A stretch of DNA of 64,000 nt from Agromyces subbeticus DSM 16689. Lineage in GTDB: Bacteria > Actinomycetota > Actinomycetes > Actinomycetales > Microbacteriaceae. The notes beneath the pieces are model-generated. The model did no database searches. It saw only the letters and a list, made by a program, of their open reading frames with translations, and was not told where the DNA came from. The stretch lies in assembly GCF_000421565.1 (NCBI RefSeq), contig NZ_ATXG01000003.1, positions 1 to 64,000 on the forward strand, read 5' to 3'. Shown here piece by piece: positions 1-5,281 of the stretch. Position numbers and translations under genes: made by a program. How positions within the stretch are numbered: the first letter of the stretch is position 1; the number at the start of each line of letters is the position of its first letter.

Positions 1-776
1 GAGGCGCGCGGCAGGTCGACGATCGCCCGTGCCGTGACGTTGCGGCTCCGCCAGCGCAGTGCGGTCTCGACACGGTCGCGCGCCTGCTCATCGGTCATCG
101 GCCGGGGCTCGAACTGCACCCGTGTCTGGAACAGGTCGCTGATGCGGTCGAGGCGGAAGGTGCGCCAGTCGTCGCGCTGCCGGTCCCACGCGAGCAGGTA
201 CCAGCGGCGGGCGACCGGCACGAGCCGGTACGGCTCGACCACTCGCGACGACGACTCGCCCGCGGCATCCGTGTACGTGAAGCGCAGCCGCTCGGAGTCG
301 CGGCACCCGAGCGCGAGCAGGCCGAGCAAATCGGTGTCGATCTCGGGTGCCGGCCGACCCGAGCGTGCGGAACCGGGGCCGCCGACGCCGACGGCCGCGT
401 GCGACTGCAGCGCCTCGATGCGCCGCCGGAGGGCGGGTGGCAGCACCTGCTCGAGCTTCGCGAGCGCGCTGATGGTCGTGTGCTCTGCGCCGCGCAGCCC
501 TGCCGTCGCCTGCGAGCGCAGGCCGACCGCGATGGCGACGCCCTCGTCGTCGGTGAGCAGGAGCGGCGGCAGCCCGGTGCCGGCCTGCAGTCGATAGCCC
601 CCGGCACTGCCGCGCGCCGAATCGATGCCGTAGCCGAGCTCGCGCAATCGGTCGACGTCGCGCCGCAGCGTGCGGTCGGAGACGCCGAGTCGGTCGACGA
701 GCTCACGTGCCGACCAGTGCCGGTGGCTCTGCAGCAGGGAGAGGAGTTCGAGGGTTCTCGAGGTCGTTGCGGCCAT
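1..776 (-). CDS. WYL-domain transcriptional regulator (partial, 3' end cut by window edge)
   Basis: 258 codons are visible from the ATG at 776; the stop lies beyond the left edge. Residues 1-65 form a DeoR/HTH_11-type winged helix (ARELVDRLGVSDRTLRRDV). The WYL domain follows from about residue 145, with the name-giving motif RWYLLAWD near 191-198. WYL proteins of this YafY-like class are usually ligand-responsive DNA-binding regulators. The gene is divergent from a DrrAB-type exporter, which makes it the likely local regulator of that exporter (inference). A GAAACT hexamer six bases before the ATG suggests a leaderless transcript whose -10 region overlaps a repeated motif. Confidence 0.85.
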   Translation of the reverse strand, partial: MAATTSRTLELLSLLQSHRHWSARELVDRLGVSDRTLRRDVDRLRELGYGIDSARGSAGGYRLQAGTGLPPLLLTDDEGVAIAVGLRSQATAGLRGAEHTTISALAKLEQVLPPALRRRIEALQSHAAVGVGGPGSARSGRPAPEIDTDLLGLLALGCRDSERLRFTYTDAAGESSSRVVEPYRLVPVARRWYLLAWDRQRDDWRTFRLDRISDLFQTRVQFEPRPMTDEQARDRVETALRWRSRNVTARAIVDLPRA

Positions 777-836
777 GCTCAAAGTTTCTCATCCATAAGG
801 ACAGAAACTGTCCGGATGCCTCGAGAAACTGGGGTC
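777..836. promoter_or_regulatory. Divergent promoter/operator region with three AGAAACT motifs
   Basis: The 60-bp space between the WYL regulator and the exporter carries an inverted pair, AGTTTCTC (783-790) and GAGAAACT (823-830). A third AGAAACT lies at 803-809 in the same orientation as the second, 21 bp (two helical turns) from it. On both strands the outer motif supplies GAAACT followed by six bases and then the start codon (at 776 and 837), so each half-site sits at the expected -10 position. This looks like one operator controlling both directions. Confidence 0.5.
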
Positions 837-1823
837 ATGACGAACCAGATGATCTCCGCACAGGGCCTCACGAAGACGTTCCCCGCCAAGGGAAAGGTCG
901 TCGAGGCCGTCCGTTCCGTCGACTTCTCGGTCGACGCCGGCGAGCTCGTCGCCTTCCTCGGCCCGAACGGCGCCGGCAAGTCGACGACGCTTCGCATGCT
1001 CACCACCCTGCTGCCACCCACGAGCGGCGAAGCGGTCGTCGCCGGCTCCGACATCCGTCGCGACCCCGCCGGCGTGCGCCGCCGCATCGGCTACGTCGGC
1101 CAGGGCACCTCGGGTGGGCACACGCAGCGCGTGCGCGATGAACTGCACGCCCAGGGATCCTTCTACGGCATGGGGCGCCGCGAGACGCGGCTTCGCGCCG
1201 ACGAGCTCATCGAGTCGCTCGAGCTCGGCCAGGTCGCCGGCCGGCAGGTGCAGTCGCTCTCCGGCGGCCAGAAGCGCCGGCTCGACATCGCCCTCGGGCT
1301 GATCCACCGACCCGAACTGCTCTTCCTCGACGAGCCGTCGACGGGCCTCGACCCGCACAGCCGGGCGAACCTGTGGGAGCACATCGTCGAGCTGCGTCGC
1401 GAGACGGGCACCACGATCTTCCTGACGACGCACTACCTCGAAGAGGCCGACCAACTTGCCGAGCGCGTCATGGTCATGGATCATGGCCAGCTGATCGCCG
1501 ACGACACGGCCTGGGCGCTCAAGAACTCGCTCGCGGGCGACCGCGTCACGCTCACCTTCGAGACGGCAACGGATGCCGCGGCCGCCGCGGCACGCATCGA
1601 CGGCGAGGCTTCGGGGTCGATCGTCACGGTCACGGCCCCCGGCGGCGATCGGGCACTCCCCCGCTACATCCGCTCGCTCGGCGATGCCGGCCTCGAGGTG
1701 GTGGCCGCGACGCACCGCCAACCGACCCTCGACGACGTCTTCCTCGCACTGACGGGCCGCAGCCTCCGCGAAGAGGCCGCGCACGCCGAGCCCGCCGAGC
1801 CCGAGCTCGTCGCTTCCGCCTGA
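837..1823 (+). CDS. DrrA-type ABC transporter ATP-binding protein
   Basis: 328-residue ATPase of the daunorubicin-resistance/ABC-2 exporter class, expected to drive export of a drug or lipid with the permease encoded next. Walker A GPNGAGKST is at 42-50, signature LSGGQKRRLD at 141-150, Walker B LLFLDEPSTGLD near 160-172 and the switch histidine in TTHYLEEAD near 196. The C-terminal extension after residue 220 (TDAAAAAARIDGE, then PTLDDVFLALTGR) is typical of DrrA. The ATG at 837 was chosen because it lies six bases after GAAACT and begins right before the ABC domain; an in-frame ATG at 816 is possible but lies inside the operator motifs. The substrate is unknown. Confidence 0.88.
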   Translation: MTNQMISAQGLTKTFPAKGKVVEAVRSVDFSVDAGELVAFLGPNGAGKSTTLRMLTTLLPPTSGEAVVAGSDIRRDPAGVRRRIGYVGQGTSGGHTQRVRDELHAQGSFYGMGRRETRLRADELIESLELGQVAGRQVQSLSGGQKRRLDIALGLIHRPELLFLDEPSTGLDPHSRANLWEHIVELRRETGTTIFLTTHYLEEADQLAERVMVMDHGQLIADDTAWALKNSLAGDRVTLTFETATDAAAAAARIDGEASGSIVTVTAPGGDRALPRYIRSLGDAGLEVVAATHRQPTLDDVFLALTGRSLREEAAHAEPAEPELVASA

Positions 1824-1954: not shown

Positions 1955-2737
1955 ATGACCACCACCACTCCCACCGCCCGCCCGACCGGCTTCGTGCACG
2001 ACACCGCCGCCGTCTTCGTGCGCGAGTCGCGGCCACTCGTGCGCGACCCGTTCAGCGTCATGTTCTCGCTCGTGCAACCGCTCATCTTCCTCGGGCTCTT
2101 CGGCCCGTTGCTCGTCGGTGCCGCCGGCGGCGATGTCGCGGGCACGCTGCAGTGGTTCGTGCCGGGCATCCTCGTCATGGTCGCGCTCTTCGGCACGGCC
2201 TCGACCGGCGCGAACCTGCTCTTCGAGATGCAGACCGGATCGCACGAGCGCACGCTCGTCGCGCCGCTCTCGCGAAGCGCGCTCCTCGTCGGCCGCGCAC
2301 TGAAGGAGGTCGTGCCGCTCGTCATCCAGGGCACGATCGTCGTGCTCGTCGCCGTGCCGTTCGGCTTCACCCTGCACGTGCCCGGGCTCATCGCCGGCCT
2401 CGCGGTGCTCGCCGTCTTCGGCATCGGCTTCGGCGCGCTGAGCTACACGCTCGCCCTCGCGTGCCGCAACCGCGACTGGATGTTCTGGATGGTGCACCAG
2501 ACGCTGCTGTTCCCGCTGATGATCCTCTCGGGCATGCTGCTGCCGCTCGACGACGGCCCCGCGTGGATGCAGGTCGCCGCCGCAATCAACCCGCTCAGCT
2601 ACCTCGTCGGCGCCGAGCGCGCGCTGCTCGCCGGCGACTTCGGCGCTCCGGCGGTCGTCGGCGGCATCATCGCCGCCGTCGTCACGTGCACGATCGGCAT
2701 CGTGGTCGGCGTGCGGGCCATGAAGCGGGCCCGCTGA
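1955..2737 (+). CDS. DrrB-type ABC-2 family transporter permease
   Basis: 260-residue integral membrane protein with about six hydrophobic segments. Examples are SVMFSLVQPLIFLGLFGPLLV near 32-52, GILVMVALFG near 70, a pair near 140-165 and WMVHQTLLFPLMILSGMLLPL near 175-195. The LSGMLLPL segment and the following NPLSYLVGAERALL resemble the conserved tail of ABC-2/DrrB permeases. It would form the membrane channel for the ATPase at 837-1823. The two genes are separated by a 131-bp spacer holding an inverted repeat pair. A likely ribosome binding site (GAAGGAGCAACTCCC) precedes the ATG. Confidence 0.85.
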   Translation: MTTTTPTARPTGFVHDTAAVFVRESRPLVRDPFSVMFSLVQPLIFLGLFGPLLVGAAGGDVAGTLQWFVPGILVMVALFGTASTGANLLFEMQTGSHERTLVAPLSRSALLVGRALKEVVPLVIQGTIVVLVAVPFGFTLHVPGLIAGLAVLAVFGIGFGALSYTLALACRNRDWMFWMVHQTLLFPLMILSGMLLPLDDGPAWMQVAAAINPLSYLVGAERALLAGDFGAPAVVGGIIAAVVTCTIGIVVGVRAMKRAR

Positions 2738-2797: not shown

Positions 2798-5281
2798 CTA
2801 CTTCTTCGCGCAAACCGAGCCGGCGTACGCCACGTCATACGACGAGTGCTTGCCCTGCCCGTTGCTCCACGTGTAGCCCGCGACGATCGCTTCACCGTCG
2901 TCGAGCGTCTTACCCGACTTCCAGAGGTAGGTCACGGTCGCACCCGGTGCCACCTTCGCGAACTTCACAGTGCCCTCGTCGGTCGTGAGCCGGACGTCTG
3001 CGGGCAGGGCCGCCCGGTTGACCGCCGACACGACGATGTACGCCTTTCCGTCGAGGCACTGGGTGTGCGCGGCAACGTCGAGCGGCACGTCTTCGACCGC
3101 GACGATCGAGATCGCGCCCGACCACGTGGCGATGCTCGACACGTTGCCAGCGGCGTCGGTCGCCCGCGCCACGACGCTGTGCATCCCATTGCCGAGCACG
3201 ATCGGCGCCGCGACCGTCTGCCACCCCGCACCATCGACGTTCACCTCGATGGTCGGCGGTGGCGTGAAGTCGTCATTGCTGGTGATCGTGAGGCTCACCT
3301 CGCTCGCGTACGTGCCGTCGGCACCGGGTGCCACCGGGTCAGCCACGATGGTGATGGTGGGGGCCGTCGTATCCGCCGGCGGGTACGACGCGAGCTGCGG
3401 CGATGCGAAGCTGCCGACCGCCGGCGCGCCGGCGTCGTTGATGATGCGGTTGATGCCGCCCGTGCCGTTCAGGAACACGCTCGTCATCGACTCGAACCGC
3501 ACGTTCGGGGATTTGGGCGACTGGATGCCGCTCTCGACCCGGATGTCCTGGCCGCCGTTGATCGTCGCGTCGAAGAACGAGTAGACGCCGAGTCCTTGCG
3601 CGAAGTGCTCGGTGACGTGGTCGGCCACCCGGTACGACGCGAAGCCGAGGCGGTCGCCGTCCATGTACGCCGCTTGGGTCGGCGGGTCGTACGGGATCTC
3701 GCTCTGGTAGAAGATCGTGCGTCCGCGCTCGCCGTTCCAGATGACCTGTTCCTCCTGGTAATGCTCGACGAAGAGCCCCGTCGCATTCACGTCGTCGCCG
3801 TTCACGATGACTCCGTGCGCGCCGGTGTTGGAGTCCCAGGCCACACCCGCGCCGTGGTCGGCGCGCCAGGCCCAGATGTGGTCGAGCAGTACGTCGTCGC
3901 TGTTCACCTCGATGCTCGTGACCGCTTTGCCTGCCCACGGGCCGCCGACGCGGATGAACACGTCGGAGAGCGTGGTCGGATTGGCCGAGTCGGAGACGGA
4001 TGCCCCGTCGGGGCCGATCTTCACGAGCACCTCCGATTCGACGGTGCCGGCGTCGACGGTGATGCCGGCGATCTTCACGCCCGCGACATCGCCGACCTCG
4101 AGGGCGGCGGTGCCGGTGTCGGGCGTGAGCGACGCGTAGCCGAGTCCGAGCACGACGGTGTCGGCCCGATCGACGACGATCGGCGCATCGAGGTGGTAGA
4201 TGCCCGGCGTGAGCAGGAGGTGCTTGCCCGACGCGAGCGCCGCGTTGATCTCGGTGGCGGAATCGCCTTCATGCGCGAGGAAGAAGTCGTCGATGGCGAT
4301 CGAGTCGCCCGCCGCGGCATCCGTCGACCATTCGTGGCCCGTCGTCTCAGTCGCCGCCTTCGGCACGAAGACCTTGTAGTCATCGCCGTCGAGGTAGAGG
4401 TACGGCGCTTCGCGGCTGATCGGCGTCTCAGCGACGTTCGTCTTGTTCCCCGGCGCGAAGTCGGTGACGGGGGCGCCGTCGACACCCGAGAACACGGTAT
4501 TCCAGACGCCGCCGTCCCACGCGCCGACAGTGGAGTCGCGCGTGAACCACTGCTGCTGGGACCCGGTGATGATCGTGCCGTCGACATTCGAGTTGGCGAG
4601 GTATCCGCCCGACGCGTACTCGCCGACCCTGCCGAAGAGGGTGAGATCGCCCTCGATGTTCATCCGGCGCAGCGGCGCGGCCTGCGAAACCGCGAATCGC
4701 ATCGTGTGCGGGTCGGTGACCCCGCTCGGGAACGGCCTGGCCGCGTCGACACCGACCGGGCGCTGGATCGGGTTGATGGTCATGTTGCCGAGCGACCGCC
4801 AGAACCGGGTGAGGGAGCCGGGCTGCTGGCAGTCCCAGGGATTCGCTTCGCACGCGCGCACTGGCTCGACATGCAGCGCGCCGTTGATGCGCACGTCTTC
4901 GGGCGAGGCACCGAGGCCGGCGATCGCGGTGTAGTAGCCGAGTTCGGCGTTGACGATGCCGGTCGCCGTCGAGGGGTCGTTCTCGCCGGCGTCGCTGCCG
5001 TACGTGCCCGGGGCGAAGAACACCGCGTGCCGGTTCTGGCTGAACTCCGGCTCGTTCGCGAGGCTCGCGAGCGTTGCATTGATGTCGTCGACCGACATCG
5101 ACGGGTCGAAGATCGTCACGTTCGGGCCGAAGTCCGGTTCGGCTGCGACAGCAGGTGTCGCCGCGAAGGCCGCGCCTCCTGCGACGAGCGCGACCACGGC
5201 CGCACTCGCCGCGAGCCGATGGGTGGCGCGCCGACCATGCGGTCGTTCCCTCCCGCTGGTGAGTTGCTTCGTCGTCGTCAC
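2798..5281 (-). CDS. Secreted beta-helix-like carbohydrate-active or adhesin-like protein
   Basis: 827 residues with a clear export signal: RRATHR, a hydrophobic stretch near 24-42 and a probable AVAA-EP cleavage near 47. Residues about 50-650 are rich in Gly, Asp and Asn, with repeating short strands typical of a right-handed parallel beta-helix (pectin-lyase/GH55-like fold). They include FAPGTYGSD and LLLTPGIYHLDAPIVVDRAD, the recurring start of such helices. Residues about 665-745 look like an Ig-like repeat (VVARATDAAGNVS). A final module of about 90 residues contains two cysteines (TQCLDG, GSVCAKK). The GTG start follows GAAGGAGAACACT. The catalytic activity cannot be named from sequence alone; a beta-1,3-glucanase or pectin-type lyase is conceivable. 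It stands alone between two unrelated units. Confidence 0.6.
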   Translation of the reverse strand: MTTTKQLTSGRERPHGRRATHRLAASAAVVALVAGGAAFAATPAVAAEPDFGPNVTIFDPSMSVDDINATLASLANEPEFSQNRHAVFFAPGTYGSDAGENDPSTATGIVNAELGYYTAIAGLGASPEDVRINGALHVEPVRACEANPWDCQQPGSLTRFWRSLGNMTINPIQRPVGVDAARPFPSGVTDPHTMRFAVSQAAPLRRMNIEGDLTLFGRVGEYASGGYLANSNVDGTIITGSQQQWFTRDSTVGAWDGGVWNTVFSGVDGAPVTDFAPGNKTNVAETPISREAPYLYLDGDDYKVFVPKAATETTGHEWSTDAAAGDSIAIDDFFLAHEGDSATEINAALASGKHLLLTPGIYHLDAPIVVDRADTVVLGLGYASLTPDTGTAALEVGDVAGVKIAGITVDAGTVESEVLVKIGPDGASVSDSANPTTLSDVFIRVGGPWAGKAVTSIEVNSDDVLLDHIWAWRADHGAGVAWDSNTGAHGVIVNGDDVNATGLFVEHYQEEQVIWNGERGRTIFYQSEIPYDPPTQAAYMDGDRLGFASYRVADHVTEHFAQGLGVYSFFDATINGGQDIRVESGIQSPKSPNVRFESMTSVFLNGTGGINRIINDAGAPAVGSFASPQLASYPPADTTAPTITIVADPVAPGADGTYASEVSLTITSNDDFTPPPTIEVNVDGAGWQTVAAPIVLGNGMHSVVARATDAAGNVSSIATWSGAISIVAVEDVPLDVAAHTQCLDGKAYIVVSAVNRAALPADVRLTTDEGTVKFAKVAPGATVTYLWKSGKTLDDGEAIVAGYTWSNGQGKHSSYDVAYAGSVCAKK

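Follow-up and report, generated by a model that had tools for sequence, protein, structure and literature searches.

The operator in the 60-bp gap between a WYL-family regulator gene and a divergently oriented exporter gene is most likely the dyad GGACA-N5-TGTCC, judged from its conservation a candidate site for the neighbouring WYL regulator. The gap is probably a compact divergent module in which the dyad-bound regulator takes the place of the -35 element at both promoters. Coordinates refer to the window, i.e. the entire 64,000-nt stretch of DNA that was analyzed (Table 1).

Table 1. Features of the divergent regulator-exporter locus.
Feature	Position	Strand	Evidence and remarks
Regulator with HTH_11 and WYL domains	3..776	-	Pfam; N-terminal 258 residues, the gene leaves the window
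Regulator -10 box GAAACT (putative)	783..788	-	-12 to -7 from ATG; alternative register AAACTT (782-787) possible
Candidate operator dyad GGACA-N5-TGTCC	799..813		Midway between the two ATGs; conservation and covariation
drrA-like -10 box GAAACT (putative)	825..830	+	-12 to -7 from ATG; begins 11 nt past the dyad
DrrA-like ABC exporter ATPase	837..1823	+	ABC_tran 105.3 bits; TIGR01188 297 bits (cut-off of 312.45 not reached)
DrrB-like ABC-2 permease	1955..2737	+	ABC2_membrane 91.5 bits; TIGR01247 100.2 bits (cut-off of 223.05 not reached)

The regulator scored 53.1 bits against HTH_11 (cut-off 25) and 83 bits against WYL (cut-off 21.8), with a literal WYL at residue 192, and has both the N-terminal helix-turn-helix and the WYL domain of the HTH-WYL(-WCX) proteins. 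All named regulators at least 73% identical to it are in Agromyces records. The contig of the window begins inside the WYL gene. Since residues 108-258 recur at 100% identity at the start of another contig (G000:C1:1-453), in a longer open frame of 223 aa, the two contig ends probably overlap within this gene. On the other side of the gap, the exporter had been named DrrAB in the first-pass annotation. The pair of an ATPase and an ABC-2 permease, as in DrrAB exporters, was found, and TIGR01188 and TIGR01247 are the best subfamily matches, but both proteins score below the curated cut-offs, by which neither is classed as DrrA or DrrB. A REP-like palindrome, GGTCTCGATACGC...CTCGACC, is located between drrA and drrB (1900-1930); this pattern has 50 copies in the genome (27 + 23), compared to 0 for the reversed control. 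A gene for a large, secreted-looking protein adjoins the exporter (2798-5281, minus strand).

Within the gap, AGTTTCTC (783-790) and GAGAAACT (823-830) form an exact inverted pair, with each GAAACT at -12 to -7, counting the A of ATG as +1. The regulator starts at CAT 774-776 (minus strand), preceded by the 6-base spacer TTGAGC, and the exporter ATPase at ATG 837-839, preceded by the 6-base spacer GGGGTC. A third copy, AGAAACTG (803-810), is placed 21 bp from 824-831. The first-pass annotation had described this pair and the third AGAAACT with exact letters, coordinates and spacing, and had proposed that the mirrored copies are WYL operator half-sites doubling as the -10 regions of two leaderless genes. 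The third copy sits within a dyad that had escaped the first-pass annotation, GGACAGAAACTGTCC (799-813). The imperfect extension of this dyad (794-818) pairs at 9 of 11 positions, and the centres of the dyad and the mirrored pair are no more than half a base apart.

In the single sequence, neither the inverted pair nor the dyad stands out. Of 20,000 dinucleotide shuffles made from the 60-bp gap, 1.6% contained an exact 8-bp inverted pair, as did 6.7% of the 60-nt stretches of the window (9,135 in total), so that this pair is mildly unlikely by chance. For a dyad whose arms are 6 bp and whose loop does not exceed 10 nt, the values were 10.5% of shuffles and 27.6% of window stretches, which is not unusual for this GC-rich DNA. 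In the whole genome, AGTTTCTC-N25-40-GAGAAACT occurs at one place, GAGAAACT-N6-RTG three times (two of them at the present locus), and GACAG-N3-CTGTC at a single place in 4.30 Mb. The case therefore rests on conservation.

The orthologue search gave 37 loci, plus matches in 40 of 60 genomes. After removal of 13 duplicates and the partial hits L035, L036 and L038, the set of upstream regions comprised 51 rows, including the window. A divergent drrA was detected (tblastn, 1e-20) in 40 rows, the window among them; the 11 rows excluded were L022, L024, L031, L032, L034, L037, L052, L063, L066, L067 and L068. The last of these was read at a wrong position owing to a contig edge, and in L052 (G026) a drrA start is present, adjoining the regulator, with the frame apparently broken early.

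All 40 drrA-linked gaps retain at least 7 of the 10 arm bases of the dyad (10 in 11 gaps, 9 in 18, 8 in 10, and 7 in one), and the dyad begins at -37 (33 gaps), -38 (6) or -39 (1) relative to the regulator ATG. The exact GAGAAACT was found in 1 of the 40 gaps at the regulator -10 position and in 2 on the drrA side, the window being counted in both, while the -12 to -7 hexamer carries A at -11 and T at -7 in 38 of 40 gaps on each side. The GAGAAACT pair was therefore rejected as the operator. As an exact inverted pair, at a single genomic place and positioned like -10 boxes, it invited the interpretation that one motif serves both roles, but what is kept of it is mainly A-11 and T-7, and it is the central dyad that is kept in 40/40 gaps and covaries with the regulator (see below); we consider such a dual role extremely unlikely. 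Because the exact GAGAAACT is rare and the dyad is kept throughout, the mirrored motif is best read as two -10 boxes facing away from each other, identical here by coincidence, with the operator candidate between them. The proposal of the first-pass annotation thus divides: the half-site assignment failed the conservation check in orthologous gaps that it had itself set, a WYL operator in the gap is retained in the form of the dyad, and, judging from the conserved hexamer positions, the gap probably holds two divergent leaderless promoters whose -10 boxes are separated from the ATGs by six bases.

The distribution of the dyad was then analyzed in a wider family set, comprised of matches from the phylum (31 of 198 genomes), second copies, and loci with the SiwR gene order from the genus g25 (matches in 57 of 118 genomes; 30 loci read). 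Removal of 15 duplicates and L035 left 170 loci, with the start positions of L036, L038, L068, L092 and L095 set by hand. A dyad of the form GG-N11-CC with at least two of three inner pairs was found upstream of 134 of the 170 regulators: 27 of 28 distinct SiwR-like loci, 39 of 53 orthologue-like loci, 45 of 60 second copies and 23 of 29 phylum hits, compared to 3.1-7.7% in shuffles and 61 of 510 intragenic windows. No dyad was found under this fixed rule at the remaining 36 loci of this first set, some of which are near-misses, e.g. GGTCA...CGTCC (L002, L005, L009).

Ten divergent neighbours were scanned and nine had a Pfam family: DinB_2 (2), glyoxalase (3), and epoxide hydrolase, alpha/beta hydrolase, MFS and NmrA-like (one each). 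The dyad is found beside varied divergent neighbours and therefore goes with the regulator rather than with one target. In g25, a DinB_2 neighbour was detected by tblastn in 27 of 30 SiwR-like loci (the match of L176 is about 600 bp away), and the dyads of the SiwR-like loci are of the TAGGACAGTTTCTGTCCTA type. In L097, a second DinB-like frame comes next, as in the SiwR operon (by eye). At an Amycolatopsis locus encoding a Tyr39 regulator (L034), a re-lettered perfect palindrome, GCGGCAAG-ATC-CTTGCCGC, occupies the same place, just upstream of position 3001 and beside an NmrA-like gene.

Half-site position 4 is complementary between the arms in 98% of 135 sites of the first set, compared to 70% in shuffled sequences, and it follows residue 39 of the recognition helix. 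All 110 GGnC..GnCC (C:G) sites belong to regulators with Arg39, and all 22 GGnA..TnCC (A:T) sites to regulators with another residue (Asn in 19, Ser in 2, Tyr in 1); 3 of the 135 sites are of neither type (L080, L106, L109). A new set of 143 loci, i.e. 46 read first and 97 further ones among the matches listed, was scored together with the first set under one rule. In the new set, the 125 Arg39 loci comprise 99 well-formed and 13 weak C:G sites, 8 siteless loci, 2 A:T sites and 3 other weak sites; the two A:T picks (L242, L253) overlap a C:G site, TGCCA...TGTCC or TGCCA...TGGCC, by eye. The 18 non-Arg39 loci comprise 11 well-formed and 1 weak A:T sites, 6 others, and no C:G site. In the first set under the same rule, the 135 Arg39 loci gave 107 C:G, 17 weak C:G, 1 G:C, 1 weak A:G and 1 weak A:T sites, with 8 siteless, and the 35 non-Arg39 loci gave 23 A:T, 5 weak A:T, 2 weak G:T and 1 G:C sites, with 4 siteless. 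The lone non-Arg39 G:C case is L036, a partial locus in which the assignment of residue 39 is an artefact of the alignment.

When the 281 sites in which base 4 is complementary are considered, 80% of the information at this base is explained by residue 39, and 29% by the residue ranking second; the rule is broken by Arg with A in 3 sites, Arg with G in 1 and Asn with T in 1. No HTH residue explained more than 21% of the information at half-site positions 3 and 5, and no clear rule emerged there. In a large tree (110 residues, 312 rows, 279 labelled), 276 of the 279 labelled rows agree, the three exceptions being Arg39 with A:T, and there are 8 changes, forming 7 independent pairs, one of them well supported. 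In the full-length set (86 rows, 77 labelled), residue class and base agree in 77/77 labelled rows, and 6 changes were obtained in a quick tree and 5 in a careful one, with two well-supported pairs in each; in the careful tree, the residue class changes five times and the base five times. It should be noted that only two residue-39 switches fall on strongly supported branches, a number too small for a sign test to reach significance.

These data bear on the identity of the binding protein. A conserved dyad alone does not name its binder, and a different regulator acting on the gap could own it; however, the dyad accompanies the WYL gene beside differing divergent neighbours, and base 4 varies with residue 39 in the recognition helix of the WYL protein, which makes a foreign owner very unlikely.

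A second GGTCAGTTTCTGTCC site was found elsewhere in the genome (G000:C6:25689-25703; L165:1501-1515), upstream of a glyoxalase/VOC-like gene (named by eye), with CAGTAT at the 11-nt spacing on one side only. No WYL gene was seen near it in the 3-kb stretch read. The site was considered as part of a conserved regulon, but the glyoxalase/VOC-like gene is present in only 2 of 60 genomes of the genus at 1e-40, its own genome and G023 (53%), and at the G023 locus (L198) no GGACA-type dyad with GG-N11-CC fully paired was found. The second site is a possible target in trans. None of the three other genomic GGWCA-N5-TGWCC sites has a -10 box at the 11-nt spacing.

The distance between the dyad and the -10 boxes was examined in 241 loci having at least two of three inner pairs, a concordant residue 39 and 40-nt flanks, with A at position 2 and T at position 6 as the criterion for a -10 hexamer. 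Exactly 11 nt past the dyad, such a hexamer is present on the regulator side in 175 loci and on the divergent side in 198 (4.6% in shuffles); 138 loci have it on both sides and 6 on neither. The second most frequent offset accounts for 3% on the divergent side; on the regulator side it is one base shorter than 11 nt and accounts for 15%, and most of the drrA-linked group has this 10-nt spacing there. In 159 of the 175 loci, 6 or 7 nt separate the hexamer from the first in-frame start of the regulator. On the divergent side, the first ATG, GTG or TTG is 6 or 7 nt off in 124 of 198 loci, with none within reach in 45. The commonest module is thus ATG-6/7-[-10]-11-[15-bp dyad]-11-[-10]-6/7-ATG, the arithmetic of which accounts for the gap of about 60 bp. 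At the present locus, no sigma-70-type hexamer pairs or terminators were found between 700 and 900.

Taken together, the dyad, its conservation, the covariation of residue 39 with base 4 and the fixed -10 spacing, all read from sequence, favour the following mechanism. A homodimer of the HTH_11-WYL regulator would bind the palindrome at 799-813. On each side, a -10 box 10-11 nt past the dyad, with no recognisable -35, would be followed about 6 nt on by a leaderless start. Bound and switched by a ligand, the regulator would stand in for the missing -35 at both promoters, each of which would have a TGTCC half-site near -26, as described for SiwR and PafBC. Exporter expression would thereby be activated, and the regulator gene would be under the control of its own product. 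Some members of the WYL family sense single-stranded DNA (PMC10693628, PMC11804915), and we infer that the signal here may likewise be a nucleic acid of this type.

Assuming that transcription begins at the start codon, TGTCC (GGA on the other strand) occupies roughly positions -28 to -24 in each promoter. SiwR, a WYL activator of Mycobacterium smegmatis, requires the -26 region, which holds a conserved GGA (PMC10693628), and in PafBC a -26 promoter element replaces the -35 contact, a case of sigma adaptation (PMC11804915). The half-site position matches the SiwR GGA and therefore, by analogy, activation as in SiwR and PafBC is favoured over repression, the main rival.

As a simple repressor, a dimer on the same operator would block the polymerase until a drug or nucleic-acid ligand released it and the exporter was induced. 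Divergent exporter/regulator pairs are commonly under the control of repressors, and the dyad spans about -24 to -38 of both promoters. In addition, phage-defence WYL regulators are described as repressors, and CapW and BrxR are tied to repression (PMC10693628). Against this, the 700-900 region lacks a -35 hexamer pair, the fixed 11-nt spacing on both sides suggests contact with the polymerase (a steric repressor should tolerate shifts), and activation of the adjacent operon, under genotoxic stress, is reported for SiwR, whose layout is the same (PMC10693628). We therefore regard simple repression as rather unlikely and activation through the -26 half-sites as the preferred reading.

Few WYL operators have been defined so far. 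The geometry and the residue-39 rule together predict the operator, both promoters and both starts for many uncharacterised WYL regulators from sequence, and the latter opens a direct specificity-swap test. A WYL regulator linked to a DrrAB-type exporter also suggests drug export triggered by DNA damage. A more general model may be put forward tentatively: one symmetric WYL dimer could act as the -26 element of two opposite, -35-less, leaderless promoters (bidirectional sigma adaptation), and changes of Arg39 to Asn, His, Ser or Ala (base 4 from C:G to A:T) could re-address the module, giving insulated stress switches in Actinomycetota, here driving a drug-exporter-like pump.

Covariation between recognition residues and operator bases has been studied in the GntR, LacI and IclR families (PMC4494728, PMC2978694, PMC8222616). 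Literature titles and the opening lines of abstracts revealed no family-wide WYL operator code or two-sided geometry, part of which may be implicit in the SiwR promoter alignments. In the PafBC system, the PafB arginines R46 and R50 lie in the recognition helix, and their joint mutation gives the pafBC deletion phenotype (PMC6789036); in PDB chain 7p5x_AY, the residues aligned with R35 and R39 of the present regulator are those numbered 46 and 50. PafBC thus shares with the present regulator the WYL family, the aligned arginines and, as proposed here, the -26 element, but is described as a heterodimer that controls a large regulon and whose motif is not palindromic, whereas a palindrome and, apparently, a local target are found here.

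The closest known system is SiwR of the dinS operon, reported to be a homodimer in vitro and to require both the recognition-helix arginines R38/R42, which were mutated jointly, and the WYL arginines R204/R207 (PMC10693628). Its binding site in EMSA is a 19-bp imperfect palindrome, placed between the -35 and -10 regions of a gap that measures about 60 bp (PMC10693628). The main text of that paper was found to give no operator letters, autoregulation, divergent promoters or start sites. In both systems, an HTH-WYL regulator adjoins its target genes, and the gap, about 60 bp long, contains a palindrome followed by a -10 box; R35/R39 and R205/R208 are spaced here as R38/R42 and R204/R207 are in the description of SiwR. 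SiwR targets DinB_2/DUF664 genes, whereas the neighbour here is a DrrAB-like ABC exporter; for this reason, the regulator is not classed as SiwR, although it may act in a similar way. By this comparison, the locus would represent an exporter-linked case of an architecture already known from SiwR.
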